This document shows, in pieces, positions 7,556 to 37,744 of a stretch of DNA of 48,492 nucleotides. The notes under the pieces are model-generated. The model saw only the letters and a list, made by a program, of their open reading frames with translations. It was not told the origin of the DNA and made no database searches. The translations under genes were made by a program, and so were the position numbers. Where the stretch lies: the NCBI GenBank assembly GCA_027487315.1, contig JAIYDW010000066.1:1-48492 (forward strand). Direction: 5' to 3'. Each line of letters starts with the position of its first letter. Position 1 is the first letter of the stretch. Origin of the DNA: Verrucomicrobiaceae bacterium. GTDB lineage: Bacteria; Verrucomicrobiota; Verrucomicrobiia; Verrucomicrobiales; Verrucomicrobiaceae.

Positions 7556-10500
7556 TCATTGGGTGATGGATACCTTGCCGCTGAGAATCGGGGAGGTGGT
7601 TTTGGTTTCGCCGACTCCGGGGATTTGTGGGAGCAGAAAGTAGCCTTTGGCTTTTGAGGTGCCAGACGAGGGGCGGACGATGAGGCCTTGGTATTTCACC
7701 GTGCGAATGAAGGCGGGGGTGTTGTCGACGAGGGTGAATGCTCCGCCGATGACCCCTGTGTTTTTATTGATTGAGAGGGTGACCTTGGCGGGATTCGAGC
7801 CACTGGCGAAGGTTGGGAGGGTCACTGTGTTCGTGCTATTGTAGGTGAAGGTGAGGTCTGGATTGGTTTGTGAGGGATTTGGCCCTGCCTCCATGAAGTC
7901 GAGTGAGGCGGGACCTGGGGCGGGTAGACCGAGGATGATGAATCGGGTTTTTGATGGAGCGAGGTATTTGCCGGTGGCGGTGAGGTTGACGGGGCCGAAG
8001 GTGGTTTTGTAGGTTCGAGTGTTGGTGGTGGGTTTCAGCCAGGTTAACGACCCGGTGATGGAGTTGTCGGTGATGAGCCCGGGAGTGCTTTCGACGAGGC
8101 TTAAAAAGCCGCTGATGGAACCGAGATTCGAATACAAAGGGGAGTGGATGGCGATTTCGCCATTGGGCCCGATGAAGCTCGATGTCGTGATGGAGGATCC
8201 ATCCGAGGCTTTGCCAGCAATCGTGAGGGAACCGGTGGTGCTGACCGTCAAAGCGGCATAACCACTGCCTTGCGGAACGGTGATGACACCCTGGTCGATG
8301 CTGTCAGTTAGATCCATGCCAAAGGAGTAGTAGCCGGCACGGGTGGTTGCGGGATTTGCTGTGCTTGAGGTTAAGCGCCAACCGTTGACTTGCGCGGTGC
8401 CATGGGTGCCGGTGAGGAGGTTGGTATTGGGATCGAGAGTCAGTGAGAGCAATTGTCCGCCGATGGTGACGGTGACTTGGGGTGGAGTTTCATTCAGGTA
8501 GCCAACGGGTGCTGAAAGGGTGGTGGAACCTCGGGTGATCTTTGCGGTGTAGGTGGCTCGGGAGGTGGTGGTGAGGGTGAGGCGGGCACCGAGGTTGGCA
8601 TTTGCCGTGGCATTGCGCGCAATGAGTCCGGTGAAGGTTCCGACCAAGTTTTGAGGCAGTGGAGTGATGACGAGGGGAGCAGAGAGCGTGGCGCTGGTGC
8701 CGGCGCTGTTTGAGGCCCGGACTCGGAGGGTGAAGGAACCGCTGACGGTGGGGCGGCCGGAGATGACGCCGGTGGAAGGGTTCAGTTTGAGGCCAGAGGG
8801 CAACCCGGTGGCTGAGTAGGTTCGGGGAAAATTGATGGCGCTAAAGGAATGGGTGAACAGGGAGCCGACTCGGATGCTGGCGAGTGTGGCAGGGTTCATG
8901 ACGGGGATCTGGCGCGTGGCAAAGACGGTGATGACGAAAGATTTGGCGGCGATGATGCCCGTTGAGTCGGTGAGTTGTGCGATGAAGGAGGCAACGCTTG
9001 GGGTGGTGGGGGTGCCGGTGAGAGTGCCGTCGGGGTTGAGGGAAAGGCCGACGGGAAGGGAGCCGCTGAAGAGGGACCACTGGTAGGGAGCGGTGCCGCC
9101 AGTGGCGAGGAGTGGCTGGTTGTAGGCGAGCGATCTGACGGCGCCGGGGAGGGGTGTCGGGGTGAGGATGGAGATGGGGGATGGGTTGATGGTGATGGCC
9201 AGAGGTTTGGTGGCGGAGAGGCCTCCGGAGTCGTTGATTTGAAGGGTGAAGTTATAGGTGCCCGGGGCGGAGGGGAGACCGCTGAGCGATCCAGCGGAGT
9301 TTAGGGTCACGCCGGGCGGCAAGTTGCCACTGGCGAGGCTCCAGGTGAAAGGAGGGGTTCCGCCTGAGGCGGTGAGGGATTGAGAGAGGGGGGTGCCGGT
9401 CAAGGTATCGGGGAGGGTGGAGGGAGTGGTGATGGTGGGTCGCGTGGCGGCGATGATGACGGTGAAGGTTTTGGAACGCGTGAAGTTGCGAGCGTCGGTG
9501 ACTTGGGCTGTGAAGGTAAAAGAGCCTGTCGCGCTGGGGGTTCCGGTGAGTTGGCCAGCACCGGTGAGTGAGACGGAGGGAGGGAGAGTGCCGCCAGCGG
9601 GTGTCCAGGCCAAGGGGGAGAAGCCATCGGTTGCCTCAAGGGAGTTGGAGTAGAGTTCACCGACGACGCCACCGGAAAGGGGGGAAGGGGAAGTGATGGC
9701 GAGGGTGGAGACAACATTTTGATTCACGGCCCCCGGGGTGGGGGTGGCACCTGTCCAGTTGGTGGCGGTGTTGCCGATGACGAAGGCGTTGGAGCGCTGG
9801 AGCGAATGACCGGTGCCGTCTGGCGAAGTTGGCCAGGGCGCGAGGTCGCGATACTCGACCTTATCCACGTTGGCGAAAAAGGGTGTTGAGCCGACGGTGA
9901 TGAGATTGGCGAACTCGACGGACATGGTCGCGTTGCTAAGTCTCGTGGAATACGGGCCGTAGATGGCGGGTGAGCCGGCACTGAGGCCGTAGGTGCTGCG
10001 GAAGAGGTTGAGGGAATCGGTATCGACTGTGGGGTCAAAGCTGACCAGCAAGACGAAGCCGCGGGGCGGGATGGAGGCGCCGCTTGGCATGAGGTATTCG
10101 ACGTCGCCCTTCAAACGCCAGCCGGAGAGGTCGACGGGAGTGTTGGTGATGTTGTAGAGTTCGATGAATTCGGAGACGGTATCGTCGAGGGCGTTGCGAG
10201 CTGGCGGGCGATACATGACTTCGTTGATGGTGACCGGGCCGAGGCGGGGGGAATTATTGGGGAGGCCTGAACCGGAGCGGAAGGCGGCTGTGGAAGGGGC
10301 ATTGTCCTGACCGAAGGAGGGGCTGGTCAGTCGCCAGAATTCGGCGCCGCCGGAGCTGTTGCTAAGGCCTGAGGCGTTGACGCGGCCGATTGAAGTGTTG
10401 GCGGTGGCAGGGCCGAAGCGGACGAGAGCGCCGAAGCCGGTGATGTTGCCGCTGCTATTGACGGCGCTGAGGAAGACTTCATCGCCGCGGCCGAGCAGGC

Positions 10501-11626
10501 TGAATGGAATGAGGCCGGACTGCATCTGTTGTTCATAGATGACGAGGAAGCCGCCGGGGGGTATGATGGTGTCGGCGGGGATTTGATACTTTTTGCGAAC
10601 GTAGAGGTCATCACTGAGCCACCAGCCGCCGACGTTGACGGGAGTGGTGCCGGTGTTGGAGAGTTCGATGGCGTCTTCGAGGGGTGGGGCGGCGCTGGCG
10701 AGGACCTCGTTGATGACGATGGAGTTGTTGAGGTAGTTGGGGTTTTCGGGTGAGGCGCACTGAGGCATGGAGACGATGGTGGAGGCGCCGTCGGGGAGTC
10801 GGCCCTGAGAGACATCGAGGGCCTGGGTGCCGAAGGTGATGCGATCGATGGTGGTGGTGCCATTGCTTTGAGTGAGGACGATGCTGTCGCCGAGGGCTCT
10901 GAGTTGAAATTTCATGCGGACACCACCGGTGAGGGAGTCGTCGGCCCAGAAGCGTTGGTGGCCGTTTCCTGCGATGAAGGAGAGTGGAGGGAGTTGATTG
11001 AGCTTGGGGGTTGTGGCGTTGTCGCTGAGCCAGAGGCCGGCGAGAGAGACGGGGTTGGCGTCGGTGTTGTAGATTTCGAACCAGTCGACCCCGTAGGCTG
11101 GGTTGGCCATGTATTCATTGATTTTGAGTTTGGTGGGGGAGGCGAGCGCTTGGGGGATGTTGATGGCGCCGATGGAGGGAGTGTTGGCCTGGAAAGAACC
11201 GGAGCCGTTGGGAGAGCGACCGATGGAGAGGTCGGGCGCTTGAGGGCCGAAGTTGACGCTGTCGATCTGGGTGGAGCCGTTGAAGAGGAGGACGCGGTCG
11301 CCATCGGAGCTCAGGCCGAAGCCGGTATGGAGGCCTGGAGAGGTGAAGGCGCTGTCTGCGTAGATGACGAGGTAGCCGCCGGCGTCGATGATGGTGGTGC
11401 TGGGGATGGTGAATTTGCCGGGGAGGAGGGGGTCGTCGGTGATGGAGTAGCCGCTGATGTCGATGCTGGTTGAGCCGGTATTGAAGAGTTCGATGACATC
11501 GGGGAAATCGGTCGCGTTGGAGTGGGCGTTGCGGTTGAAGGCGAGGACTTCATTGATGACGATGGAGGCCTGAGCGACCGAGGTGAGCGCGCAAAGAGAG
11601 CAGAGAGCGAAGAGGAAGCGGAGCAT
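7556..11626 (-). CDS. Giant exported lamin-tail / putative-Ig protein
   Basis: 1356 residues from ATG 11626, beginning with a signal peptide (MLRFLFALCSLCALTSVAQA). Four lamin-tail (LTD) domains follow at about 21-140, 165-280, 301-420 and 464-635, recognised by IVINEVLAFN, FEIYNTDANPVSLAGLWLSD, VINEVLASAA and INEVMYRPPARN-type starts. Four putative-Ig (He_PIG) domains run from about 641 to 1005, with repeats such as SLTGTP, SLSGLPSAPGTYNFTLQIND and VISGRPTVSGSFTLRVRASN. The last 350 residues form a module shared with the NHL protein at 39716-44230. LTD proteins of this phylum often also carry a CotH kinase domain; none is seen here. It is the last gene of the VTC-DUF4956-fusion protein-TolC operon (7 bp after TolC), so it may be exported by or work with those proteins. 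Confidence 0.85.
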   Translation of the reverse strand: MLRFLFALCSLCALTSVAQASIVINEVLAFNRNAHSNATDFPDVIELFNTGSTSIDISGYSITDDPLLPGKFTIPSTTIIDAGGYLVIYADSAFTSPGLHTGFGLSSDGDRVLLFNGSTQIDSVNFGPQAPDLSIGRSPNGSGSFQANTPSIGAINIPQALASPTKLKINEYMANPAYGVDWFEIYNTDANPVSLAGLWLSDNATTPKLNQLPPLSFIAGNGHQRFWADDSLTGGVRMKFQLRALGDSIVLTQSNGTTTIDRITFGTQALDVSQGRLPDGASTIVSMPQCASPENPNYLNNSIVINEVLASAAPPLEDAIELSNTGTTPVNVGGWWLSDDLYVRKKYQIPADTIIPPGGFLVIYEQQMQSGLIPFSLLGRGDEVFLSAVNSSGNITGFGALVRFGPATANTSIGRVNASGLSNSSGGAEFWRLTSPSFGQDNAPSTAAFRSGSGLPNNSPRLGPVTINEVMYRPPARNALDDTVSEFIELYNITNTPVDLSGWRLKGDVEYLMPSGASIPPRGFVLLVSFDPTVDTDSLNLFRSTYGLSAGSPAIYGPYSTRLSNATMSVEFANLITVGSTPFFANVDKVEYRDLAPWPTSPDGTGHSLQRSNAFVIGNTATNWTGATPTPGAVNQNVVSTLAITSPSPLSGGVVGELYSNSLEATDGFSPLAWTPAGGTLPPSVSLTGAGQLTGTPSATGSFTFTAQVTDARNFTRSKTFTVIIAATRPTITTPSTLPDTLTGTPLSQSLTASGGTPPFTWSLASGNLPPGVTLNSAGSLSGLPSAPGTYNFTLQINDSGGLSATKPLAITINPSPISILTPTPLPGAVRSLAYNQPLLATGGTAPYQWSLFSGSLPVGLSLNPDGTLTGTPTTPSVASFIAQLTDSTGIIAAKSFVITVFATRQIPVMNPATLASIRVGSLFTHSFSAINFPRTYSATGLPSGLKLNPSTGVISGRPTVSGSFTLRVRASNSAGTSATLSAPLVITPLPQNLVGTFTGLIARNATANANLGARLTLTTTSRATYTAKITRGSTTLSAPVGYLNETPPQVTVTIGGQLLSLTLDPNTNLLTGTHGTAQVNGWRLTSSTANPATTRAGYYSFGMDLTDSIDQGVITVPQGSGYAALTVSTTGSLTIAGKASDGSSITTSSFIGPNGEIAIHSPLYSNLGSISGFLSLVESTPGLITDNSITGSLTWLKPTTNTRTYKTTFGPVNLTATGKYLAPSKTRFIILGLPAPGPASLDFMEAGPNPSQTNPDLTFTYNSTNTVTLPTFASGSNPAKVTLSINKNTGVIGGAFTLVDNTPAFIRTVKYQGLIVRPSSGTSKAKGYFLLPQIPGVGETKTTSPILSGKVSITQ

Positions 11627-11633
11627 GGGGCGG

Positions 11634-13349
11634 CTATTTTTTGACATCGGTGGCGGCAGGGAGTTCGACACCGCGGCGCAGAACGCGTTCAAGGCCGACG
11701 CCGATGGCTTTTTCGAGTGCGTAAGAGGCTTCGAGGTAGGCGGAGAGCGCGGAGTAGCGATTCAGTTCCATTTGCTGGGAGAGATCCTGGAACTCCTGTT
11801 CGATGCGTTTGGCTTTGAGGAGGTCTTCGATGTCAGCGGTGGCGAGTTGGGAGTCGGCGAGGGATTTTTTCAGGTCGGCATTGAGTTTGGAGATGTCCTG
11901 CTTGCAGTTTTCGAGTTGGGAATCCGCGGAGACGAGGCGGGTGATGGCCTGGCTGATCTCATAGGCGATGAGGCTGCGCTGGAGTTGGATTTGCTGTTCG
12001 ATGGAGAGGGTGGCGGCGAGGGGCACCTCGCGCTGTTTGTTGATGCCGAGCCAATTGAAGATGGGGATGGAGATACCGACCCGGGCGAACCATTCCTCAT
12101 TTTGGCCGGTGCGGCGGAAGCTGTTTTGCTGGGAGTAGCCGAGATCGATGAAGGTGGTGAAGGGGATGCTGGCGGCTTTGGCTTGGGCGAGTTGGGCTTG
12201 GGCGATGGAGAGACGGGCCTGGGCGTTCAACATGTCGCTGCGATAGAGAGTGGCGATGTTGCTGAGGTAGGCGACGTCGAGTTGGGCGGGCTGGCTAATG
12301 AAGGTGGGGGAGAGGGAGGTCTTTATGCGGGTGGGATCGGACAGGCCACAGTAGGCGGCGAGTTCCTGGCGGAGGTTGGCGATCTCACCTTCGAGTGACC
12401 GGATATCGGTTAGGGTGCCGTAGACTTTTGCGCGAGCGGAAGCGAGATCGAGTCCGATTTTTGGAGACTGCTGAGTTTGGAGCCAGTCGCGGTAGGATTC
12501 GCAGTTTTTTTTGCGAAGGGTTTGGGTGGCGAGTCGGGCGTTGAGGATGGCGAGGTCCTGGAAATTGGAGCGGACGGTGCGGACGACGATGTCTTCTTCG
12601 GCGAAGTAGTCGGCCTCGGCGAGGGAGACTTCGGCGGCGGCGCGGAGGATGCGGGCTTTGCGTTCCCAGGGGTGGGGGACTTTGAAGCGGACGAGGGCGC
12701 CCCAGGCGTTGTCACGACCGGTGGTGTCCGGGTGTTCGATGACGCGGCGGTTGGTGGCGACGAGTCTGCGGTTGCTGGATTCGCTCGAGGATTGGGGGCT
12801 GGTGGAGCCGAGTTCGGTCCGACTGCCGGAGGAGGAGGTGGAGGAGTCGCGGGTTTCGTAGATGCGCTCTTCGATAACGTCCTGGGTGGCGCCGGGGGTG
12901 ACGCGCCGTTCGATCATGCGCATGCGGCTGGTGGAGGTGGAGCCGCGCTCACTTTCGAGGGTGGTGCCGTTGAGGGTGGTTTCGGTGGAGAAGGTGTTGA
13001 AGGTGTCGGTGGAGTTGGTGAGGGAGGTGTCGAATTCGGTGAAGGGTTCGCCGACACGGTTGTCGTTGTCGTAGGCGTAGCTGACTCGCAATTCGGGTTC
13101 TTCGAGATTGCGAACGGCTCTTTGCTGGGCGGTGGCAACTTTGACCGCGCCACGCAGTTTTTCGAGTTGAGGAAGATTGGCGATGGCCAGGAGAGTCAGC
13201 TCGCGCTCCGTAATGGGTCCCTGATTTGGGACCATTTCCAAGAGGGTTTGGACTGATGGGATTGAACGTGGCGATGGCTGAGGATCTGCCGCAGACGCAT
13301 AGGTTGGGCCATGCAGCAACACCAGGAGGATGAGATGGGTGAGCCGCAT
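11634..13349 (-). CDS. TolC-family outer membrane channel with long extracellular loop
   Basis: 571 residues with a signal peptide (MRLTHLILLVLLHGPTYASA) and two long coiled-coil repeats typical of outer membrane efflux proteins, for example ILRAAAEVSLAEADYFAEED and LNAQARLSIAQAQLAQAKAA. The short barrel strand VSYAYDNDNRVG and the matching strand WGALVRFKVPHPW are separated by about 115 residues rich in Ser, Thr, Arg and Glu (about 100-220), in the place of an extracellular loop. This insert is much longer than in ordinary TolC proteins. The gene is 9 bp after the membrane fusion protein gene, so the two very probably form one export channel. The inner-membrane partner is not an obvious ABC or RND pump. 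Confidence 0.85.
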   Translation of the reverse strand: MRLTHLILLVLLHGPTYASAADPQPSPRSIPSVQTLLEMVPNQGPITERELTLLAIANLPQLEKLRGAVKVATAQQRAVRNLEEPELRVSYAYDNDNRVGEPFTEFDTSLTNSTDTFNTFSTETTLNGTTLESERGSTSTSRMRMIERRVTPGATQDVIEERIYETRDSSTSSSGSRTELGSTSPQSSSESSNRRLVATNRRVIEHPDTTGRDNAWGALVRFKVPHPWERKARILRAAAEVSLAEADYFAEEDIVVRTVRSNFQDLAILNARLATQTLRKKNCESYRDWLQTQQSPKIGLDLASARAKVYGTLTDIRSLEGEIANLRQELAAYCGLSDPTRIKTSLSPTFISQPAQLDVAYLSNIATLYRSDMLNAQARLSIAQAQLAQAKAASIPFTTFIDLGYSQQNSFRRTGQNEEWFARVGISIPIFNWLGINKQREVPLAATLSIEQQIQLQRSLIAYEISQAITRLVSADSQLENCKQDISKLNADLKKSLADSQLATADIEDLLKAKRIEQEFQDLSQQMELNRYSALSAYLEASYALEKAIGVGLERVLRRGVELPAATDVKK

Positions 13350-13358
13350 CGGGGGGGA

Positions 13359-14450
13359 TTAAAGATTCTCAGGTTTGGGGGCCTTGATGACCAGGCTTAC
13401 GATCTCGCCGGGTCTAAGGTTGAGATCGGGTGGCAGCAAAACTTCCACTGGCAGTCCAACCTCTGGAGTGGCTGTGGGATGCAAGGAGGGATTTGTGATG
13501 AGTTCAAACTGTGAGCCGACGTGCACTACGGTAGAGGTGCTCTTTTGCCGGGACCGTCCGTGGCTTCGGACTTCGACTTCCATGCCGATGGCAGGTTCAA
13601 CGGGCAGGGGTTGGCGGAGATAGCCAATGATGTTTCCGGGTTGCAATGCGGTGATGGTGACGAGCGGCTCGTTAGCGGCGATGCTTTCGCCCTCGGAGTG
13701 CAAGACGCTCGTGACGATGCCGTCGATTGGGGAGCGGAGAGTGATGAGGCGCTGACTTTGTTCCGCATCGCTCAAACGAGTTTCGAGGTTGTTGATGGCA
13801 AGTTTCAAGGAATCATCCGGTTTCGCGTTGAAGGTGGGTTGCAGGTCGCGGAGGACCTGCAGTCGTGAGCCGAGTGCCTCGACGAGTGATTTGCGTTCCT
13901 GCACTTCGGCGTCTGCTGATGCCTTGGCGAGTTCGGCTTCCTGCAGGAAACGAGGGGATTGGGTGGCTTCTTTGACGAGACCTTTGGAGACTTCCAAGTC
14001 CATGTTGGCCCGGCGTTGATTGGCTTCGGATTGGACGAGTGCTATTTTTTCGCTCATCCAGTCGAGATGCAAACGCTCGTAGTCGAGCATCATGCGGCCT
14101 TGCGAATCGTTGACGGATGTCTCGTTGGCTTTCAATCGAAGCAGTGATAGATCACTTTGGATCAGGTCGAGGGAAGCTCGGGTATCGGTAGGGCTTAATT
14201 CTGCGATGGGGTCACCCGCTTTCACCAGGGCCAATCGGCGGATGGTGAGGCGTTGGATGGTGGCGGCGCTGGTGCTGTTGACGCTGACTCGATGAGCTGA
14301 CACTTCGCCCAAAAGCATTGAGGGTGACACGGCGTCATGCCAAAGCATGGATGCGATGAAGGCCGTCATTGCAAACATGAGGATCGGGAGCATGCGGGTG
14401 CGCATGTCCTGGAGTCGAAGTTTGAAAGGTATGGGAACAGGGTTCTTCAT
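13359..14450 (-). CDS. HlyD-type membrane fusion protein
   Basis: 363 residues with one N-terminal transmembrane helix (MLPILMFAMTAFIASMLW, about 20-37). A split lipoyl-like domain surrounds a coiled-coil hairpin: first half GEVSAHRVSVNSTSAATIQR to LALVKAGDPIAELSPTD, coiled coil about 90-215, second half ITLRSPIDGIVTSVLHSEGE. A beta-barrel segment follows (GMEVEVRSHGRS). Such adaptors join an inner-membrane transporter to a TolC channel. It overlaps the DUF4956 gene by 4 bases (14447-14450), so they are translationally coupled, which suggests that DUF4956 is its inner-membrane partner. Confidence 0.85.
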   Translation of the reverse strand: MKNPVPIPFKLRLQDMRTRMLPILMFAMTAFIASMLWHDAVSPSMLLGEVSAHRVSVNSTSAATIQRLTIRRLALVKAGDPIAELSPTDTRASLDLIQSDLSLLRLKANETSVNDSQGRMMLDYERLHLDWMSEKIALVQSEANQRRANMDLEVSKGLVKEATQSPRFLQEAELAKASADAEVQERKSLVEALGSRLQVLRDLQPTFNAKPDDSLKLAINNLETRLSDAEQSQRLITLRSPIDGIVTSVLHSEGESIAANEPLVTITALQPGNIIGYLRQPLPVEPAIGMEVEVRSHGRSRQKSTSTVVHVGSQFELITNPSLHPTATPEVGLPVEVLLPPDLNLRPGEIVSLVIKAPKPENL

Positions 14451-15127
14451 ATCTCAGATTGATTCTCAGCGGCGATGACAAAGACGTGTTCGACGCCAGC
14501 CAGGGCGCGAAGTTCGGCGGCCATTTCTTCCATCAGAGCGGGGTTGCGCATGAGGATGCGGTAAGAGAGTTCCATGCTGCTTCCGACGGTTTGTTGGTTG
14601 GCGCTATGAACCTTGCGAGCATGGCGATTGAGCAAGGAGAGCATTTCGGGTAACTCGCCTGACGGGCGTGACCAATTGACATTCAAGATGACGTCGTAGT
14701 TTTGGCGGGTGCCAAATTCGGTAATCCAAAGGTAGAGGAAGATAGCCGCCATCAGGGTGCAACCGATGACAGCGGTGGTGTAGCGTTGAGTGCCGCAGGC
14801 CATGCCGAGGACGATCCCGGAGAGGAGGTAGGTGGTGTCCAGGGTATCTCGCAAGACGTTTCGGAACCGGACAATGGCGAGGACAGCCATAAGACCGAAG
14901 GCTGTTACGAGGTTGTTCGACAGAACCATCAGAACGAGAGCGACGATCACTGGAAGCACGACGAGTGACTTCACGAACGAGCGAGAATAGGAGAGGCCAT
15001 TGTGAGTCCAGACGTACAGCCAGGCGACAACGTGTCCGCACAAAAAGGAGAGGAGCAGGGACAGGGCTACCAGGCGGTAGTCCATGGGCTGTGGAGTGAT
15101 GTCACCCTGAAAAAAATGCTCAACCAT
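14447..15127 (-). CDS. DUF4956 integral membrane protein
   Basis: 226 residues. The N-terminal half has four or five hydrophobic helices (LVALSLLLSFLCGHVVAWLY, FVKSLVVLPVIVALVLMVLS, AFGLMAVLAIVRFRNVLRD, AVIGCTLMAAIFLYLWITEF). The second half is a soluble domain of about 85 residues. The stretch AIVRFRNVLRDTLDTTYLL is a conserved feature of DUF4956. Function is unknown, but the family commonly lies next to VTC-domain polyphosphate-polymerase-like genes, as it does here: the two genes overlap by 8 bases. The soluble tail could be a cytoplasmic regulatory domain. Confidence 0.85.
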   Translation of the reverse strand: MVEHFFQGDITPQPMDYRLVALSLLLSFLCGHVVAWLYVWTHNGLSYSRSFVKSLVVLPVIVALVLMVLSNNLVTAFGLMAVLAIVRFRNVLRDTLDTTYLLSGIVLGMACGTQRYTTAVIGCTLMAAIFLYLWITEFGTRQNYDVILNVNWSRPSGELPEMLSLLNRHARKVHSANQQTVGSSMELSYRILMRNPALMEEMAAELRALAGVEHVFVIAAENQSEI

Positions 15128-15869
15128 AGGGAAGCTCTACCTTTGGTTGGCGGAAGTGTTGCTCACCGTACAACTCGACACCTCCAGTGTATTTCGCGGC
15201 GCCACATTGCATGATATTGAAGACATGGATCATGTCGCGAAACCATTGAGGGTAGCGAGAGGTGAACTTCAATTCGAGGACAACGTTGTCATTGAAGACG
15301 ACGACGGGTTTTTGCATTCTGGTGTGCAGAGAGAGGTCGAAGCAAGGTTCGACCAGCACCTGACGGTCCATGGTGACGCGCACGCTGTTGTCAAGGCGGC
15401 TGACCCATGCCTCACGGCGGTAGGCCACGTGGGCACGAGGCGTTGCGGCGTTGTTTTGAATGAGGGGCAGGATGACTGAGTAGTCGGCTTGATCCTTGGG
15501 GCGAATGCAGGACGAGTTTCCTGCGAGGGCCGAGGGAAGGGCATCGCGGGTCAGCATGCAGCGTTGCTTTCGAACAACGTCGTTGTACTTGCGCTTGAGT
15601 TCAAGGAATACAGGCGCGTCTGCGTTGTCATCGTAATAGCGCGCACGAAGTTTGTAACGATTGCGGTCCCCGTTGAGGGTGGCGTGATAGGTATTGAGGG
15701 AAGGGGAATCCAAGTAGATGCTGTGAATGGGATAGGAGCGGTCTTCCTGGGCGTGGGCGTCGAGTACCAGATTGGGCGAGATGAAGTCCCGAATGGGTTG
15801 GCTGAGTGACTCGGGGATGATGAATTTCAGCTCAAAGCGTTGCGCTTGGATGGGGTGGTGAGCTGCCAT
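15120..15869 (-). CDS. VTC-domain protein (polyphosphate polymerase-like)
   Basis: 249 residues from ATG 15869. The VTC fold, a tunnel enzyme of the CYTH/TTM superfamily, is indicated by basic and acidic strands: RFELKFIIPESL, SIYLDSPSLNTYHATLNGD with RNRYKLRARYYDD, FLELKRKYNDVVRKQRC, VAYRREAWVS, VRVTMDRQV and VVLELKFTSRYPQWFRDMI. In yeast Vtc4 this domain makes polyphosphate from ATP; bacterial homologues paired with DUF4956 are not characterised. The open frame extends to a TTG at 15968, but ATG 15869 begins at the conserved region. It is the first gene of a five-gene operon, and its promoter should lie within 15870-16014, a gap shared with the divergent DUF1287 gene. Confidence 0.85.
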   Translation of the reverse strand: MAAHHPIQAQRFELKFIIPESLSQPIRDFISPNLVLDAHAQEDRSYPIHSIYLDSPSLNTYHATLNGDRNRYKLRARYYDDNADAPVFLELKRKYNDVVRKQRCMLTRDALPSALAGNSSCIRPKDQADYSVILPLIQNNAATPRAHVAYRREAWVSRLDNSVRVTMDRQVLVEPCFDLSLHTRMQKPVVVFNDNVVLELKFTSRYPQWFRDMIHVFNIMQCGAAKYTGGVELYGEQHFRQPKVELPYG

Positions 15870-16804: not shown

Positions 16805-16886
16805 GATTGGAGGCAGGAAAGGGGCGGTTGGGAGGGCGGGATTTTTTAGCGAATCGTGATATTTAAGATGAATTTAGCACTTGCTA

Positions 16887-16915
16887 TTTACGTGGTATTT
16901 CATAATTATTATAAT
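16887..16915 (+). promoter_or_regulatory. Probable sigma-70 promoter of the type II secretion operon
   Basis: TTTACG (16887-16892) and a perfect TATAAT (16910-16915) are 17 bp apart in an AT-rich stretch that stands out from the GC-rich surroundings. It lies 49 bp before the gspE ATG and just after the disrupted DUF1287 gene. Confidence 0.6.
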
Positions 16916-16964
16916 ACTTTGGGGTTTTGGGAGTCGAATCTCTCAACGCACCCTTGTTTGTGCC

Positions 16965-18728
16965 ATGCTACCGCTTGTTCAACAGCTTCTGAAAGATGCC
17001 GGCATTGGGGAAAACCCTGATGTGGTGGCGGCTATTGATGAGGCGTGTTACAACCAGACGTCGTTTGTCGATTCGGTTTTGGATTGTGAGGGGGTGAGGG
17101 AGCGGGATTTTTTGGTGGCGCTGGCGCATGCGTTGAGTTTGCCCTGGTGGGAGTTGGATCCGGCGAGGCCGGTGGATGGGACGGTGAGGCGGCAATTGCC
17201 AGCGGAGTTGGCGTTGCGGTATCGGCTGCTGCCATTGGGTTTGGAGACGCCGCCGGAGGGAGTGGATGAGGGGATGACGCTGCTGCATGTGGCGACTTGT
17301 GATCCACTGAATTTGGTGTCGCGACAGCATGTGGCGGCGAGCGTGAATCATGCGATTGTGTGGCATGTGGGACTTCGGACGCAGATCGTGGAGGGGTTGC
17401 AGAAGCTGTATGGATTGGGGGCGGACACGTTTGAGAAGATTCTGAGGGGGCGAGCGGACTGGGCGAATGATGAGTTGCGGGAGGAGGTGACGGTGCTGGA
17501 TGACGAGGAGGATGAAGAAGCGAGCGTGGTGCGGTTTGTGAACCAGATCATTCGACGCGGGCTGGAGCAGCGGGCGACGGATATTCATGTGGAGCCGCAG
17601 CAGGATCGGCTGAGGATTCGGTATCGGATTGACGGGCGTCTGGAGGAGTTGGCGGTGCCGGAGAACATCAAGTCGCTGCAGTCTTCGGTGATTGCACGAT
17701 TGAAGATCATGGCGCGATTGGACATTGCGGAGCGGCGGTTGCCGCAGGATGGCCGGATCAATTTGGAGATGGATGGGTTGGCGATCGATGTGCGGGTGGC
17801 GACGATTCCTTCGGTTGAAGGGGAGAGCATCAGTTTGCGGCTTTTGGGTCAGCAGAAGGTGAGTTTGGACTCGCTGGGGATGATGGACACGATTCGGCCG
17901 GTGGTGGAGGAACTATTGAAGCTGCCGAATGGGATCATTCTCATTACGGGGCCGACCGGGAGCGGGAAGTCGACATCGTTGTATGCGTTTTTGACGGAGT
18001 TGAACAGCACGCATCGTCGGATCGTGACGATTGAGGATCCGGTGGAGTACAAGATGCCGGGGATTGTGCAGATTGCGGTGAAGCCGGAGATTGGGTTGAC
18101 GTTTGCGACGGGGTTGCGGAGCATTTTGCGGGGGGATCCGAACGTGGTGATGGTGGGGGAAATGCGGGATTTGGAGACGACGGAGATTGCGATTCGCGCG
18201 GCGCTGACGGGGCACCTGGTGTTCAGCACGCTGCACACGAATGATGCGATTGGGGGGATATCGCGGTTGGTGGACATGGGAGTGGAGCCGTTTTTGGTGG
18301 CGAATGCGGTGCGGGCGTTTTTTGCGCAGCGGTTGGTGAGGAAGCTGTGCCCGGTGTGCAAGGCACCGGCGGAGTTGGACGATGCTTATTTGAAGTCGGT
18401 GGGTTTTCCGATGAAGCTGGGAGGGACGCCGATGCGGGCGGTGGGTTGTGAGGCGTGCCGGGACAGTGGGTATCAGGGTCGACTGGCGATTTATGAAGTG
18501 TGTTTGGTGACGGGTGCGCTGCAGCATTTGATCAACTCGAGATCGCATCCGGTGGAGATGTATCGGCAGGCGTTGAAGGATGGGTATTTGCCGATGAGGG
18601 AGTATGGCTTTCAGAAGGTGCTAGCCGGGGAGACGACGCTGGAAGAGGTGCTGGCGGTGACGGCGACGGATCGGTCGACGCATGAGATGGAGACGATGGT
18701 GCCGCGTGGGGGGACGGGTGGGTTGTGA
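16965..18728 (+). CDS. gspE: Type II secretion ATPase GspE
   Basis: Cytoplasmic hexameric ATPase that drives pseudopilus assembly. 587 residues from ATG 16965; the open frame starts at 16881 within the promoter region. The N-terminal MshEN-like domain (about 1-150) is followed by the core: DIHVEPQQDRLRIRYRIDGR, Walker A GPTGSGKSTS (about 329), the Asp box TIEDPVEY, Walker B NVVMVGEMRDLETTEIA and the His box GHLVFSTLHTNDA. A tetracysteine zinc motif is intact (CPVC near 462 and CEAC near 494). PilB of type IV pili is very similar; the GspF-M genes that follow and the GspG-type major pseudopilin favour type II secretion. Confidence 0.92.
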   Translation: MLPLVQQLLKDAGIGENPDVVAAIDEACYNQTSFVDSVLDCEGVRERDFLVALAHALSLPWWELDPARPVDGTVRRQLPAELALRYRLLPLGLETPPEGVDEGMTLLHVATCDPLNLVSRQHVAASVNHAIVWHVGLRTQIVEGLQKLYGLGADTFEKILRGRADWANDELREEVTVLDDEEDEEASVVRFVNQIIRRGLEQRATDIHVEPQQDRLRIRYRIDGRLEELAVPENIKSLQSSVIARLKIMARLDIAERRLPQDGRINLEMDGLAIDVRVATIPSVEGESISLRLLGQQKVSLDSLGMMDTIRPVVEELLKLPNGIILITGPTGSGKSTSLYAFLTELNSTHRRIVTIEDPVEYKMPGIVQIAVKPEIGLTFATGLRSILRGDPNVVMVGEMRDLETTEIAIRAALTGHLVFSTLHTNDAIGGISRLVDMGVEPFLVANAVRAFFAQRLVRKLCPVCKAPAELDDAYLKSVGFPMKLGGTPMRAVGCEACRDSGYQGRLAIYEVCLVTGALQHLINSRSHPVEMYRQALKDGYLPMREYGFQKVLAGETTLEEVLAVTATDRSTHEMETMVPRGGTGGL

Positions 18729-18747
18729 TTTTTAAACTGCTTATCTG

Positions 18748-20022
18748 ATGCCGACGTTTGCTTACACTGCTCAAGGGCCTGCTGGATTGATCCAGGGGGA
18801 GCTGAGTGCTGTGGACCGGTCTGAGGCGTTCGCGCTTTTGGGGAGGAAGCGGTTGCAGCCGGTGAAGCTGGTGCAGACGGAGGAGCGGGCGGCGCCGGTG
18901 AAGGCGAGTGTGAAGGGGAAGGTGGCGGGCAAGCCGAAGGCGGAGTTGCATGCGGATGTTTTGCAGTCGGGTGGGGCGCTGCATTTGAAGCTGCCCCAGG
19001 TGGTGTTGTTCACGGAGGAGTTGAGTGATTTGCTGGGAGCGGGAATTCAGTTGGAGCCGGCGTTGGCGACGATGGAGCGGCGGCGGGAGTTGAGCGGCAT
19101 CAAGGTGCTGGCGGCGGCGCTGCGGGCGAAGATTCGGGATGGAATGGCGTTTTCGAAGGCGCTGGCTTCGACGAGTCCGAGTTTTGGGAATCTGTTTTGT
19201 GCCCTTGCCACGGCGGGTGAGGCGAGTGGCACCTTGAGCGCGATTTTGAAGCGGCAGGCGGAGTATTTGAGATCGTTGCAGGCGCTGCGCAGCAAGGTGC
19301 TGTTTGCGATGATTTATCCGGCGTTTTTGATCGCGGCTTCGCTTTCGGTGACGCTGTTGTTTGTGGTGTATTTGATTCCGAAGTTGACGGAGTTGCTGGA
19401 TTCGACGGGGGGCAGTTTGCCGCTGGGGGCGCAGATCATATTGAAGTTCAGTGACTTTGCGAAGACGTGGTGGTGGCTGGCGGCGTTGGGATTGATTTGT
19501 GGGGGAATTTTGTTGCGGGCGTGGCTGGCGAGGCCGGATTCGGCGATTCCGTGGGCGAAATTTCAACTTAGGTTGCCGTTGTTTGGGGCGATTTTGAAGA
19601 CGCGGTTTCAGGTGCAGTTTTTGGAGACGATGGCGAACCTGGTGGGGAATGGATTGCCGATGGTGAATGCGATGCAGTTGACGCATCAGGCGATTGAGAA
19701 TCCGTATTACAAACAGGAGTTTGCGAAGGTGATTGAACTGGTGGCGGAGGGGATGGCGCTGAGTCGGGCGTTGGATCGAAGTGGTTTGTTTCCGCCGTTG
19801 ATGCTGGACATGGTGAGTGTGGGGGAACAGACGGGGGATTTGTCCGGGGCGCTGCAGAAGGCGGGGGAGCGGTTTGACCGGGAGCTGAGCAAGAAGGTGG
19901 ACAAGCTGACGGCGATGGCGCAGCCGCTGATTGTGGTGCTGATGGCGGGGATGGTGGGGATCATGGCCTACCTCATGATCACGAGCATTTTCCAAACGAT
20001 CACGTCGATTCAAACGAAGTAA
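18748..20022 (+). CDS. gspF: Type II secretion inner membrane platform protein GspF
   Basis: 424 residues. After a short N-terminal region (PTFAYTAQGPAGLIQGELSA) come two GspF/PilC repeat domains with FTEELSDLLGAGIQLEPALA and FLETMANLVGNGLPMVNAMQ. Three hydrophobic stretches are seen: MIYPAFLIAASLSVTLLFVV, TWWWLAALGLICGGILLRAW and, at the C-terminus, PLIVVLMAGMVGIMAYLMIT. It forms the platform that GspE acts on. It starts 19 bp after gspE, and gspG follows closely, so they are one operon. Confidence 0.93.
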   Translation: MPTFAYTAQGPAGLIQGELSAVDRSEAFALLGRKRLQPVKLVQTEERAAPVKASVKGKVAGKPKAELHADVLQSGGALHLKLPQVVLFTEELSDLLGAGIQLEPALATMERRRELSGIKVLAAALRAKIRDGMAFSKALASTSPSFGNLFCALATAGEASGTLSAILKRQAEYLRSLQALRSKVLFAMIYPAFLIAASLSVTLLFVVYLIPKLTELLDSTGGSLPLGAQIILKFSDFAKTWWWLAALGLICGGILLRAWLARPDSAIPWAKFQLRLPLFGAILKTRFQVQFLETMANLVGNGLPMVNAMQLTHQAIENPYYKQEFAKVIELVAEGMALSRALDRSGLFPPLMLDMVSVGEQTGDLSGALQKAGERFDRELSKKVDKLTAMAQPLIVVLMAGMVGIMAYLMITSIFQTITSIQTK

Positions 20023-20036
20023 AAAAACCAAACGAA

Positions 20037-20483
20037 ATGCATATGAACATCGCAAAGACACAGAAGAAGGCGCCGCGAGCGAGCGGCTTTACGTTAATTG
20101 AAATGGTGCTGGTGCTGGGCATCGTAGCGCTGCTGGTGGGGGCGGGTATTTTCTCGCTGATCGGTGTGTTGGACACGGGTAAGGAGAGTCGGGTGAAGGG
20201 GGACATCAACACGTTCACGGCGGCGCTTCGGGCGTATGAGACGTCGAACATGTTTCTGCCTTCGACGGAGCAGGGGCTGATGGCGCTGGTAGAGAAACCG
20301 AGTTCGCGCCCGCAGCCACAGAACTGGCGGCCGTTTATGAAGAAGGTGCAATTGGATCCCTGGGGGAACATGTATCACTACCGTCGTCCCGGGACGAAGG
20401 ATAAGGGAGGGTTTGATCTATACTCAGCGGGTGCGGACGGGCAGCCGGATACGGCGGATGACATCGGGAACTGGGGGCTGTAA
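20037..20483 (+). CDS. gspG: Major pseudopilin GspG
   Basis: 148 residues with a prepilin leader cut between G17 and F18 (RASG-FTLIEMVLVLGIV), glutamate at mature position 5 and a hydrophobic helix. The C-terminal part has the GspG hallmarks: NTFTAALRAYETSNMFLPST, EQGLMALVEKPSS, LDPWGNMYHYRRPGTKDKGG and the calcium-site region FDLYSAGADGQPDTADDIGNW. It is the main subunit of the pseudopilus that pushes substrates out. A downstream ATG at 20043 is also possible; the leader is unaffected. Confidence 0.95.
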   Translation: MHMNIAKTQKKAPRASGFTLIEMVLVLGIVALLVGAGIFSLIGVLDTGKESRVKGDINTFTAALRAYETSNMFLPSTEQGLMALVEKPSSRPQPQNWRPFMKKVQLDPWGNMYHYRRPGTKDKGGFDLYSAGADGQPDTADDIGNWGL

Positions 20484-20486
20484 TTG

Positions 20487-20960
20487 ATGACGAGAACTGC
20501 GATCACATTGAACGCCGGTAGGGCGAGCCAGCGGCTCGCTCCACGGGCGTTCACGCTTTTGGAGGTGATCGTAGCGATGAGCATCGGGTTGATTGTGCTG
20601 GGGGTTTCGGTGTTGAGCATTTCTGGGGTGCAGGATGACAACCGATTGAGACGGGTGGCGACGGACATTGAGGGGACGGTGCGGGAGGCGTTGTTTGAAG
20701 CGCTGTCGAGTCAGCGGGCGGTGCGGTTGGCGTTGGATGGGGGATTGGGTGGCGAGGGGAGCGTGATGGTGCGGCGGTTTGGGGAGAAGAAGTTCCGCGA
20801 GGCGCGGCAGGGGGAGTTTTGGGAGTTCAGTCCGACAGGGATTTGTGAGCCGATCGAGGTGCGGGTGCAGCATGAGCTGGGAGAGGTTGAGTTGGCGTTT
20901 GATCCGCTGACTGGGATGGCGAAGCGGCGTGGGATCATTGTGAAAGGAGGGGGGCAATGA
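20487..20960 (+). CDS. gspH: Minor pseudopilin, GspH-like
   Basis: 157 residues from ATG 20487, 3 bp after gspG. The prepilin leader is followed by FTLLEVIVAMSIGLIVLGVS with glutamate at +5. The residue before the cut is alanine (PRA-FTLLE) instead of the usual glycine, which prepilin peptidases tolerate poorly or slowly. The globular part is short and contains FWEFSPTGICEPIEVRVQH, like the GspH fold. Assigned as H by position between G and I. Confidence 0.75.
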   Translation: MTRTAITLNAGRASQRLAPRAFTLLEVIVAMSIGLIVLGVSVLSISGVQDDNRLRRVATDIEGTVREALFEALSSQRAVRLALDGGLGGEGSVMVRRFGEKKFREARQGEFWEFSPTGICEPIEVRVQHELGEVELAFDPLTGMAKRRGIIVKGGGQ

Positions 20961-21376
20961 GGGTGTGTGTTGCCAATGCAGGTAAGAGGAAGGGCGGCTT
21001 TGTGCTGTTGGAGATTGTGATGGCGCTGGGTTTGTTTGCGTTGGTGGCGGTGGGGATGACGCAGGCCCTGGATCAGATCGCGCAGACGTCTAAGTTAGGT
21101 CGGCAGGAAGCGCAGTTGATTCGGGCGTTGGACTCGGCTTTGGCGCAGGTGGTGCATTTGCCGGAGTTCAAGAAATCGAGTTACACGTTTCCTGAGAGTG
21201 ACGAGGGGATTGCGGCGAAGGCTTCAATCGAGCGGGTGGAGTTGTATACCCAAGAGAAGGCTTTGCTGGACAAGATGTATCGGGTTCAGGTGGAAGCCTG
21301 GATCAAGGACGGATCTGAGATTGTGCTGCAGCGCGGCATTGAAACCTATGTTTATTCACCCCAAAGCTCCCTTTGA
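20957..21376 (+). CDS. gspI: Minor pseudopilin, GspI-like
   Basis: 139 residues, overlapping gspH by 4 bases. The leader ends KGG-FVLLEIVMALGLFALVAV, with glutamate at +5 and the usual hydrophobic stem. The small globular domain contains IERVELYTQEKALLDKMYRV. In known systems GspI starts the tip complex with J and K; the role here is by order and shape. Confidence 0.78.
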   Translation: MRVCVANAGKRKGGFVLLEIVMALGLFALVAVGMTQALDQIAQTSKLGRQEAQLIRALDSALAQVVHLPEFKKSSYTFPESDEGIAAKASIERVELYTQEKALLDKMYRVQVEAWIKDGSEIVLQRGIETYVYSPQSSL

Positions 21377-22031
21377 ACGACCGCTGACGGTGCGCTCTGG
21401 CGGCTTTACGCTGCTGGAGGTGCTGGTGGCGATGGCGTTGATCACGTTTGTGATCGGCGGGGTGTATGGCATCTCGGGTGCGGCGGTGGAGTTGGGGCGG
21501 AGCATGAGTGAGGCGCGGGTGGTGGAGACGCGGGTGACGAATTTTGTGTCGGTGTGGCGGGACTACTTTGAGAACCTGCCACCGGACATTCGTTTTTCGG
21601 CCGGGGTGGAGAAGACGTCGCACGGTGGTAGTGGGGCGTTGCTGATTGAGGGTGGGCCGATGCCGTTTGCGTGGCATCCGATGCTGCGGCAAGCAGAGGC
21701 GGTGGAGTTTCGGGTGGAGAAGGGGGAGGTGGGATACTCGCTGGTGGTGCGGCATTTGCAGAAGCCGGAGCGGGCGGTGAAGCCGGGAGACTATGAGGTG
21801 ATCGCGGAGTTGCCTTTGCTTGAGGGCTTGGAGTCGATGACGTGGCAGTTTTACGAGCCGGTGGATGATGAGTGGTATGCGAACTGGGATCCGAAGAAGC
21901 GGCCTGAGGCGCCGTTGTTTTTGCGGTTGCAGTTTCAACTGGGAGAAGATCCGCGGCGGCATGAGCAGGTGTTTTGGGTGGCGAATGATTTGGCGCACCG
22001 GTTGGTTGACCAAGGAGGGGGGAGGCCATGA
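21348..22031 (+). CDS. gspJ: Minor pseudopilin, GspJ-like
   Basis: 227 residues from ATG 21348, which overlaps gspI by 29 bases. The frame is open back to 21198, but that part is the shadow of gspI. The leader SGG-FTLLEVLVAMALITFVIG is standard. The larger globular part (AVEFRVEKGEVGYSLVVRHL, GLESMTWQFYEPVDDEW) resembles GspJ, which has a longer beta domain than H and I. The stop overlaps the gspK start. Confidence 0.78.
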   Translation: MFIHPKAPFERPLTVRSGGFTLLEVLVAMALITFVIGGVYGISGAAVELGRSMSEARVVETRVTNFVSVWRDYFENLPPDIRFSAGVEKTSHGGSGALLIEGGPMPFAWHPMLRQAEAVEFRVEKGEVGYSLVVRHLQKPERAVKPGDYEVIAELPLLEGLESMTWQFYEPVDDEWYANWDPKKRPEAPLFLRLQFQLGEDPRRHEQVFWVANDLAHRLVDQGGGRP

Positions 22032-22972
22032 GGAACACGACTTTCCAGGGTGGAGGAAGGATGAACCGGGGCTCGGCTTTGGTGGCGGTGTTTTTCATGA
22101 TCGCCATTCTTGGGATGGTGATGTATGCGGGGGCGAAGGCGCTGGATGCGGATGCGAAGCATTCGCGGCTGACGCGGGCGCGGGTGCTGGCGAAGCGGTA
22201 TGCGCAGATGGGGATTGAGCTGGGCAAACATCCGCAGATGAAGGATGGGGATCCGTTGTTGTGGCATACGGCGCCGGATGGGGGCGGCTTTGAAGTGAAG
22301 CTGGTGAGTGAGGAGGCGCGGCTGAATGTGAACGTGCTGTTGCAGAGTGGTGATACGACGCTGTTGAAGCGGGTGTTTGTGCGCTGGGGACTGGATGCGC
22401 AGCAGGCGTCGATGATGATTGATGCGCTGAAGGATTGGGTGGATGCGGATGACAAGACGAGTCTGAATGGGGCGGAGAAGCGGGACTATGAGAAGGCGGG
22501 GTTTAAGGGGATGCCGTTCAATCGGCCGTTCAAGGAGTTGGATCAGATGATGCTTGTGTTTGGGATGGAAGAAGTGGATGCCCTCAGGCCGGACTGGCGG
22601 GAGTGGTTTACGATTTATGGGAATGGGAAGGTGGATGTGAATGATGCGCGGACGGAAATGATCGCGTTGATTGCGGATGTGCCGATTGAGCGCGTGGAAC
22701 CGGTGACGAGGTTTCGGGCGGGGATTGACGGGATGCTTCGGACGATGGATGACCAGAAGCTGAATTCGGTGCCGCAGTTGGCGCAGATGCTGGGGATTTT
22801 TCAACCGCAGGTGGTGGCCCAACTCAATCAGTGGGTGCAGTTTCAAGGGCCGATTCGGCGGATTGAGAGCATCGGCAGCATCGGCGGGTTGAGCCGTAAG
22901 TTTGTGTTGATTACCCAAAACCAAAACGCGCTGTGGCGCGGCGAAATTCCTTCCCATGGCAAAGGCACGTAA
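22028..22972 (+). CDS. gspK: Minor pseudopilin, GspK-like
   Basis: 314 residues, with ATG 22028 after a strong GGAGG. Leader RG-SALVAVFFMIAILGMVMY lacks the +5 glutamate, as is normal for GspK, which caps the pseudopilus tip. The large helical domain is visible as ARLNVNVLLQSGDTTLLKRV, IDALKDWVDADDKTSLNGAE and the helix-hairpin-helix part GKVDVNDARTEMIALIADVP. It overlaps gspL by 17 bases. Confidence 0.82.
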   Translation: MRNTTFQGGGRMNRGSALVAVFFMIAILGMVMYAGAKALDADAKHSRLTRARVLAKRYAQMGIELGKHPQMKDGDPLLWHTAPDGGGFEVKLVSEEARLNVNVLLQSGDTTLLKRVFVRWGLDAQQASMMIDALKDWVDADDKTSLNGAEKRDYEKAGFKGMPFNRPFKELDQMMLVFGMEEVDALRPDWREWFTIYGNGKVDVNDARTEMIALIADVPIERVEPVTRFRAGIDGMLRTMDDQKLNSVPQLAQMLGIFQPQVVAQLNQWVQFQGPIRRIESIGSIGGLSRKFVLITQNQNALWRGEIPSHGKGT

Positions 22973-33274: not shown

Positions 33275-34222
33275 CTATTTTTCGGCGATGAAGACATCGA
33301 CTTGCTGGCCGACGTAGAGGGGGGTGTCTTTGGGTTTGGGGAGGCGGTAGATGACCTGGAGGACGCGGGTGTCGACGCGTTCGGTGCTGGCGCCGGTAAG
33401 GGAGGCTTTGGGGACGACGAAGGGTTCGATGCGCTCGAACTCGAGCGGGTAGGGGGTGGCGGAGTCGCCCTTGAGGAAGGCGGTGGCAGCCTGGCCGGTG
33501 CGGATGCGCATGGCGTTTTGTTCGTCGACATCGACACGGACTTGGAGGGTATCGACATCGCCGAGGATGAGGGGGGCGGCTTTGTTTTGGCTGGAGGCGT
33601 ATTCGCCGGCGCGGATGTTGACCTGGAGGACAGTGGCGTCTTTAGGGGAGCGGACGGTGAGGCGCTCGATGAGGAGTTGGGTTTGCTCGACATCGGCTTT
33701 GGCGGCTTCGAGTTGAGCGCGGGCGGCGAGGACTTCGGCTTCGGAGATGGCGAGGTCGTTGGTGCGGTTGGTGACGTCGTCCTGGCTGATGGCACGCTGA
33801 TCGGTGACGGATTTGAGGCGATCGAGGGTGGCGCGGGCTTTGTTGAGCTGGGCGAGGGAGACGTCGAGATTGGCCTGGCTGACGGCGATGGCGGCGTTTT
33901 GTTTGCCGAGGGCAGCGCGGAGTTCGCGGTCGTCGATAACGAGGAGGACATCGTCTTTTTTGACTTTGTCCCAGACGCGGACTTTGACTTCGCTGATGAT
34001 GCCGGGAGCGGGGACGCCGATGGCGACGTTTTCACTGAGCGCTTCGATGATGCCGGTGGCGGCGACGCCTCCTGAGTAGGGTTTGACGGGAGGGGTGACG
34101 GGGGGAGGCGGGATGGTGGCGTTGTCCTGGCCATGGATGGTCTGCATGACGGAGGTCATGACGATGACACCTGCGATGGCGAGGATGAAGGTGGCGTAGC
34201 GTACGAGGAGGGCGAGTTTCAT
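33275..34222 (-). CDS. HlyD-family membrane fusion protein (MacA-like)
   Basis: 315 residues from ATG 34222; the frame is open further upstream only as a shadow of the ATPase gene. It has an N-terminal anchor (LALLVRYATFILAIAGVIVM), a lipoyl-like half (ENVAIGVPAPGIISEVKV, WDKVKKDDVLLVIDDRELRA), a coiled coil (about 100-185), the second half LTVRSPKDATVLQVNIRAGE and a beta-barrel (LQVRVDVDEQNAMRIRTGQA). It overlaps the ATPase stop by 4 bases, so permease, ATPase and adaptor form one exporter of the DevBCA/MacAB kind. No TolC partner lies beside it. Confidence 0.87.
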   Translation of the reverse strand: MKLALLVRYATFILAIAGVIVMTSVMQTIHGQDNATIPPPPVTPPVKPYSGGVAATGIIEALSENVAIGVPAPGIISEVKVRVWDKVKKDDVLLVIDDRELRAALGKQNAAIAVSQANLDVSLAQLNKARATLDRLKSVTDQRAISQDDVTNRTNDLAISEAEVLAARAQLEAAKADVEQTQLLIERLTVRSPKDATVLQVNIRAGEYASSQNKAAPLILGDVDTLQVRVDVDEQNAMRIRTGQAATAFLKGDSATPYPLEFERIEPFVVPKASLTGASTERVDTRVLQVIYRLPKPKDTPLYVGQQVDVFIAEK

Positions 34223-34980
34223 CCGTGGGCGAGGTTTGCGATGTGGTCTGGGAGAGGGGAGGAGCCGTCGGCGTCGTGGACGTCGGTGACTTTGCCGTCG
34301 TCGAGGGAGGCGATGCGATTGGCGTGAGAGAAGATGCGGTTGTCGTGGGTGACGATGAGGACGGCGCGTTCGGGGCTGCGGGCGACCTGCTCGAAGATTT
34401 CCATGACAAGGAGGCCGTTTTTGGCATCGAGAGCGGCGGTGGGTTCGTCGCAGATGATGAGGCGGGGGTCGTGGACGAGGGCGCGAGCGATGGCGACGCG
34501 TTGCTGCTGGCCGCCGGAGAGTTGGGAGGGGCGTTTTTTGGCGTGTTCGCCGAGGCCGACCTGTTCGAGGAGGGCGCGGGCTTTTTTTTCGGCGAGGCGC
34601 GTGGAGCAGCCCTGGATCAGGAGGGGGACGGAGGCGTTTTCGATGCAGTTGAGGGTGGGGATGAGATTGAACTGCTGGAAGATGAAGCCGATGGTGTGGG
34701 CGCGAAAGCGGGTGATGGCGGCCTTGGACATTTTGCGGAGGTCGTTGCCGAAGACTTCGAGTTGTCCATCGTCGGCGGCGAGGGTGCCGGCGATGATGCT
34801 GATGAGGGTGGTTTTGCCGCAACCGGAGGGACCGACGAGCATGGTGATATCGCCACAGCGGACGTCGAGGTCGACGCCTTTGAGGACGAGGAGCTTGGTG
34901 CCGCCGTCGCCAAAGCTGCGGGTGACGCCGCGGATGCAGGCGGCGAGAGGTTTTTGAGGTGGTGAGACGGGGTCTGACAC
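34219..34980 (-). CDS. ABC transporter ATP-binding protein (LolD/MacB/DevA type)
   Basis: 253 residues from GTG 34980. Walker A GPSGCGKTT, Q-loop FIFQQFNLIPTLNCIENASV, signature LSGGQQQRVAIARAL, Walker B RLIICDEPTAALD and the switch histidine in IVTHDNRIFSHANRIA are all intact, so it should hydrolyse ATP. It pairs with the FtsX-type permease 13 bp upstream and the fusion protein that it overlaps. Confidence 0.93.
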   Translation of the reverse strand: MSDPVSPPQKPLAACIRGVTRSFGDGGTKLLVLKGVDLDVRCGDITMLVGPSGCGKTTLISIIAGTLAADDGQLEVFGNDLRKMSKAAITRFRAHTIGFIFQQFNLIPTLNCIENASVPLLIQGCSTRLAEKKARALLEQVGLGEHAKKRPSQLSGGQQQRVAIARALVHDPRLIICDEPTAALDAKNGLLVMEIFEQVARSPERAVLIVTHDNRIFSHANRIASLDDGKVTDVHDADGSSPLPDHIANLAHG

Positions 34981-34993
34981 AGAGGGAAGGATT

Positions 34994-37616: not shown

Positions 37617-37744
37617 TGGGTATAAGTGAGGCCAGGGTCGAAGCGGGGTGGGTGGGGAAAGGCGGCTCGACAAAAGGTGGGAGAGGTGGTAGTGGGTTGG
37701 GTTCCGCTGGGGGCTAGCAGTCTTGGCGGAGAGTGCACACGAGA

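Follow-up and report, generated by a model that had tools for sequence, protein, structure and literature searches.

What might be moved outward, and by what route, by an operon that joins a polyphosphate-polymerase-like protein to a periplasmic adaptor and an outer-membrane channel and that holds no pump gene? The question is raised by a locus in a window of 48,492 nucleotides (the whole stretch of DNA analysed; contig JAIYDW010000066.1, GenBank assembly GCA_027487315.1) from a Verrucomicrobiaceae bacterium. The source genome (5.87 Mb, 98.7 % complete) contains one VTC gene and one DUF4956 gene. PPK1 is also encoded, so the operon is unnecessary for polyphosphate synthesis as such.

Operon layout and genomic setting

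Five genes are present on the minus strand at 7556-15869 of the window. A VTC-domain protein of the TTM fold (249 aa, 15120..15869; Pfam VTC, 6.4e-38) is followed by a DUF4956 protein (226 aa, 14447..15127; Pfam DUF4956, 7.6e-14), an HlyD-type periplasmic adaptor (363 aa, 13359..14450; Pfam HlyD_3, 1.1e-06; EmrA-type, 1.5e-15), a TolC/OEP outer-membrane channel (571 aa, 11634..13349; Pfam OEP, 3.2e-15, two repeats) and a giant LTD protein (1356 aa, 7556..11626; Pfam LTD, 3.9e-61; He_PIG, 4.8e-35). Successive genes overlap by 8 and 4 bases or are separated by gaps of 9 and 7 bases, a spacing that suggests one transcript for all five; a promoter and terminator scan of the operon gave nothing above chance level. 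Genes, domains and spacing had been described in an initial annotation; the former were all borne out by coordinates and Pfam E-values, and the overlaps and gaps proved exact.

No ABC, RND or MFS pump gene was found in a Pfam domain scan of the operon. The nearest ABC exporters of the window, two in number, lie at least 18 kb away: the first, a MacB-type permease (34994-36160, minus strand), has its own HlyD-type gene (33275-34822, minus strand), and the second was located at 37733-39676. The MacB-type permease and the HlyD-type gene (33275-36160) apparently represent an ordinary pump-linked adaptor, in contrast to the operon. Type II secretion/pilus-like genes adjoin the operon on the plus strand (16881-22972) and include those for a T2SSE ATPase (16881-18728), an N-methylation-motif protein (21198-22031) and T2SS protein K (22028-22972).

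The VTC and DUF4956 proteins

The VTC family profile matched yeast Vtc4 at 1.6e-26, and the top 13 Foldseek matches of the AlphaFold model of the window protein (pLDDT 91) were all Vtc2, Vtc3 or Vtc4, with Vtc4 the best. Vtc4 residues K200, R264, R266, K281, K294, Y359, R361, R373, E426, K428 and K458 are all kept in the window protein, in which R75, R77, E199 and K226 correspond to R264, R266, E426 and K458; the position of Vtc4 R253 is occupied by Thr. The active-site residues were kept in 47/47 aligned VTC sequences (46/47 at R264). In yeast, R264A/R266A/E426N abolishes VTC activity (PMC9911596), and K458 has been described as catalytic (PMC4641920). An invariant Glu of the bacterial family (E13) stands at Vtc4 Thr198 and probably matches Glu-4 of the acidic patch of TTM hydrolases (PMC4641920), so hydrolysis by bacterial VTC may still occur. 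R11, K101 and K201 of the window protein are basic as in Vtc4 and E13 is acidic, their mapping to the hydrolase patch being putative. No hydrophobic segment was found in VTC across 174 homologues. From its sequence, the VTC protein is predicted to be a cytoplasmic phosphate-polymer polymerase, and we infer polymerase activity for the bacterial proteins.

Kinship of DUF4956 with MgtC was indicated by matches of 55 of the 64 DUF4956 homologues to MgtC PF02308 (best 9.8e-07) and by comparison of the two profiles with hhalign (94 % probability, E 1e-07). On these profile matches, DUF4956 belongs to the MgtC superfamily. In the model of the window protein (pLDDT 87), five helices span 17-136 and an ACT-like domain occupies 144-219; a transmembrane N-terminal part with an ACT-like C-terminal domain is likewise found in the MgtC/SapB family. 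The C-terminal domain aligned with the MgtC C-domain 2lqj over 86 residues (Z 9.9, 2.7 Å), a score tied with those of many other ACT/ferredoxin-like folds. One protein (L115, G004:C373) passes the curated cut-offs of DUF4956 and MgtC alike. The invariant residues of DUF4956 are Y38, R87, F88 and R89. Judged from the distribution of charges, the N-terminus lies outside, whereas loops 42-48 and 87-95, the latter with the invariant Arg-Phe-Arg, face the cytoplasm. DUF4956 differs from the MgtC/SapB family in having this Arg-Phe-Arg of its own and in adjoining VTC.

Querying the PDB by sequence with DUF4956 was unproductive; in fold searches with the model, the ACT-like domain filled the list and no match to the membrane domain was seen. 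VTC-DUF4956 fusion proteins were sought as proof of contact and none was found. The literature searched, which largely excludes subscription journals, yielded no function for DUF4956. MgtC proteins are better known as regulators than as channels, with roles in magnesium and phosphate stress. We regard DUF4956 as a candidate inner-membrane conduit.

The yeast VTC complex (Vtc1/Vtc3/Vtc4), a synthase-translocase, offers a comparison. It shares with the bacterial pair a TTM-fold polymerase domain with the catalytic residues mapped above, and the combination of an enzyme with a membrane protein whose cytoplasmic entrance carries basic residues; it differs in that the bacterial enzyme lacks SPX and membrane helices of its own, and in that the bacterial partner is the MgtC-related DUF4956 and not a Vtc1-type protein, with an adaptor and an outer channel following. 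In yeast VTC, synthesis in the cytoplasm is coupled to translocation by way of a basic-walled channel, whose basic residues face the nascent chain, and the complex requires a potential that is positive on the lumen side (PMC9911596). In polarity, the bacterial periplasm corresponds to the yeast VTC lumen. By analogy, and not by homology, the Arg-Phe-Arg of DUF4956 may be likened to the basic residues of the yeast channel. Gram-positive pel operons carry accessory cotH-PPP-DUF4956-DUF4832 genes beside the pel genes, with no function given (PMC7112168). There, too, a VTC-type 'poly-phosphate polymerase' stands beside DUF4956, together with CotH; these accessory genes differ in having no adaptor or outer channel and in being contiguous with Pel polysaccharide genes.

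Distribution of the adaptor and its partners

The adaptor resembles those of HlyD/EmrA/MacA-TolC exporters in its N-terminal membrane anchor, its lipoyl-like and hairpin regions and the OEP channel that accompanies it; the absence of an ABC, RND or MFS pump from the operon and the tie of its subfamily to VTC-DUF4956 set it apart. The TolC-docking RLS motif (PMC3391258) was present in 17/57 adaptors, at one aligned position, at which the Arg is Val in the window adaptor and the Leu and Ser are retained.

A profile was built from 30 adaptors, all from Verrucomicrobiota, and searched against 388 Verrucomicrobiota genomes, matches above 200 bits being taken as strong. Of 40 strong matches, 37 adjoin DUF4956; most of these are members of the profile, and the seven non-members likewise adjoin DUF4956. 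The three exceptions comprise one adaptor at the first bases of its contig and two HlyD-TolC pairs; the genome of one such pair has a VTC-DUF4956 locus without an adaptor. Below the strong matches, DUF4956-adjacent fragments scored 160-181 bits, and unlinked full-length adaptors at most 157 bits. The same profile was run on 294 Planctomycetota, 249 Pseudomonadota and 198 Bacteroidota genomes. It gave 14, 1 and 6 strong matches, respectively (E ≤ 1e-45 or ≤ 1e-40), every one of which adjoins DUF4956 with VTC (21/21). At one locus (L240) the gene order is altered but the same gene set is still together. The junction between DUF4956 and HlyD measures at most 50 bp in 58/58 loci across phyla (median 2.5 bp), so the arrangement is not due to chance. 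Distances among VTC, DUF4956 and HlyD proteins are correlated (Mantel r 0.86-0.94, 0/2000 permutations), to which shared species history contributes. This HlyD subfamily is dedicated to the VTC-DUF4956 pair.

No pump family recurred among 79 proteins neighbouring the loci. Pairing of the adaptor with a normal pump elsewhere had been named as evidence that would count against a pump-less exporter; the strong matches were found beside DUF4956 instead, and no recurring pump was found. HlyD-TolC pairs unlinked to DUF4956 were seen at L214, L215 and L217, with no pump among the adjacent genes scanned; the pair at L217 (G148:C212) has neighbours of 1256 and 1448 aa and is unlinked to the VTC-DUF4956 of its genome. 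A plasmid search returned five distant VTC matches and no HlyD match.

DUF4956 was found in 76/388 Verrucomicrobiota genomes, and VTC adjoins it in 83/90 loci of this phylum and in 62/79 loci elsewhere. VTC-DUF4956 pairs are found in bacteria as diverse as Pelagibacter, Chloroflexi, Planctomycetota and Verrucomicrobiota. An adaptor of the subfamily lies directly 3′ of DUF4956 in 40/90 Verrucomicrobiota loci, from 21 families. TolC then follows in 25 of these 40 and is not adjacent in the other 15; in Planctomycetota loci, OEP was confirmed at the corresponding position. One of six family relatives of the source genome has DUF4956, there without an adaptor, and the module is therefore patchy. 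VTC-DUF4956-HlyD is nonetheless a recurrent module, in at least four bacterial phyla. The 79 loci outside Verrucomicrobiota were collected with three DUF4956 sequences that were not of the adaptor-bearing type, so the count of 0/79 with HlyD is uninformative on the distribution of the adaptor.

CotH is the commonest partner of VTC-DUF4956, occurring near 53/79 loci outside Verrucomicrobiota and 42/90 inside, some of them also with an adaptor; an N-terminal anchor or signal was found in 87/110 CotH proteins. In monoderms (Chloroflexi, Patescibacteria, Actinobacteria), most loci consist of VTC-DUF4956 and an anchored CotH, and many diderm loci have a CotH of ~930 aa. A Porin_O_P porin (annotated as 'phosphate-selective') is present in 8/90 Verrucomicrobiota loci. 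In one family of the window's order (L035, L037, L042, L044, L045, L047, L049), Porin_O_P comes after VTC-DUF4956 and replaces HlyD. In Pelagibacteraceae, which have very small genomes, DUF4956, an unknown protein of ~340 aa, CotH and VTC are clustered (L128, L135, L137, L144, L157). Locus L097 holds two divergent VTC-DUF4956 copies and a downstream protein of ~1000 aa (CotH cluster) within ~15 kb of contig. Most simply, VTC-DUF4956 would be an inner-membrane core, which some diderms have supplemented with one or another route across the outer membrane.

The LTD protein of the window contains four LTD and four He_PIG matches in 1356 aa and, judged by eye, has a hydrophobic N-terminus (MLRFLFALCSLCALTSVAQA). 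It is predicted from its sequence to be a Sec-exported surface or matrix protein. No CotH domain was found in it; at related loci, most LTD neighbours are of the LTD-CotH type, and the window's protein is a CotH-less form. Two CotH proteins are encoded elsewhere in the source genome. Another protein of the window (1504 aa; 39716-44230, plus strand), which has NHL repeats and Ig and He_PIG domains, matches the LTD-protein profile through its repeats. The suggestion that the LTD protein is the cargo of the exporter was considered and is unlikely, because of its apparent Sec signal peptide and because LTD-CotH or CotH replaces it at other loci.

Proposed synthesis and export of a phosphate polymer

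Taken as a whole, the operon would encode a synthase and an exporter that act as a coupled system on inorganic polyphosphate or a closely related phosphate polymer, a reading that we hold at somewhat better than even odds (about 0.55). The cytoplasmic VTC protein would polymerise the gamma-phosphate of ATP and be docked by DUF4956, through which the growing polyanion would traverse the inner membrane. The driving force would come from polymerisation and from the inside-negative membrane potential, so that no ABC, RND or MFS pump would be needed. The HlyD adaptor would sit on DUF4956 and bridge to the TolC channel, by which the polymer would reach the cell surface, there to be used or bound by LTD or LTD-CotH proteins. 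Counting against this reading are the regulatory role for which MgtC proteins are better known, E13 of bacterial VTC, the Thr at Vtc4 R253 and the Val in the RLS motif of the window proteins, the 15/40 HlyD loci that have no adjacent TolC, and the PPK1 gene of the genome.

Two parts of this proposal had been anticipated in another form. DUF4956 had been suggested as the inner-membrane part of a new tripartite exporter without a pump; a dedicated pump-less DUF4956-HlyD module agrees with this, but conservation of the five genes as one unit is not supported, since TolC is adjacent in 25/40 loci and LTD or CotH proteins occur in a minority. Polyphosphate had been thought to power or accompany export. 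It is itself the likelier cargo, because the Vtc4-like active site is conserved and because of the yeast precedent; by sequence and analogy it is the best reading of the cargo, at slightly favourable odds. A broader version, in which the pump-less VTC-DUF4956-HlyD-TolC system makes and exports polyphosphate, with HlyD-TolC in some diderms, and serves extracellular CotH or LTD proteins, for example as phosphate donor, is put forward only tentatively. In the literature found, with subscription journals mostly outside the search, no bacterial VTC-DUF4956 exporter was described, and that literature held no activity or transport data for bacterial members.

Other functions can be envisaged for the same genes. 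VTC-DUF4956 might be a membrane-bound sensor or regulator responding to phosphate polymer, with HlyD and TolC serving a controlled surface process and carrying no polymer. MgtC acts as a regulator of ATP synthase and of the balance of phosphate or magnesium, and the ACT-like domain of the MgtC-related DUF4956 is of a fold that many regulatory proteins share; we nevertheless consider a sensor or regulator unlikely, as it leaves unexplained the nearly gapless tie of one HlyD subfamily to DUF4956 across four phyla, and the absence of another inner-membrane partner. A surface-phosphorylation system, in which the exported polymer is an intermediate and not the end product and serves CotH or LTD proteins outside the cytoplasm as their phosphate donor or ligand, would fit the frequency of CotH, the anchors or signals that place most CotH proteins where ATP is expected to be scarce, and the LTD-CotH nature of most LTD neighbours. 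Against it, the LTD protein of the window has no CotH domain, although CotH is encoded elsewhere in the genome, and no CotH is known to use polyphosphate; this version appears quite doubtful.

It is, finally, improbable that HlyD and TolC work with a pump encoded elsewhere, as a tripartite exporter of the usual kind, and stand beside VTC-DUF4956 through co-regulation only. Adaptors can be shared between pumps, and HlyD-TolC pairs do occur away from DUF4956 at the three loci named above; but the strong subfamily matches adjoin DUF4956 in 37/40 and 21/21 cases, and no pump recurs among the neighbours or among the genes scanned beside those three pairs.

For the preferred reading, a coupled synthase-exporter, the dedicated adaptor is a direct hint at outward transport by the VTC-DUF4956 pair, and a candidate cargo is suggested by the Vtc4-like active site. 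In some bacteria, polyphosphate may be synthesised and extruded in a single step. If true, this would be a second bacterial polyphosphate route beside PPK, one that delivers the polymer outside the cell, and it would bear on surface biology, the biofilm matrix and phosphorus cycling.
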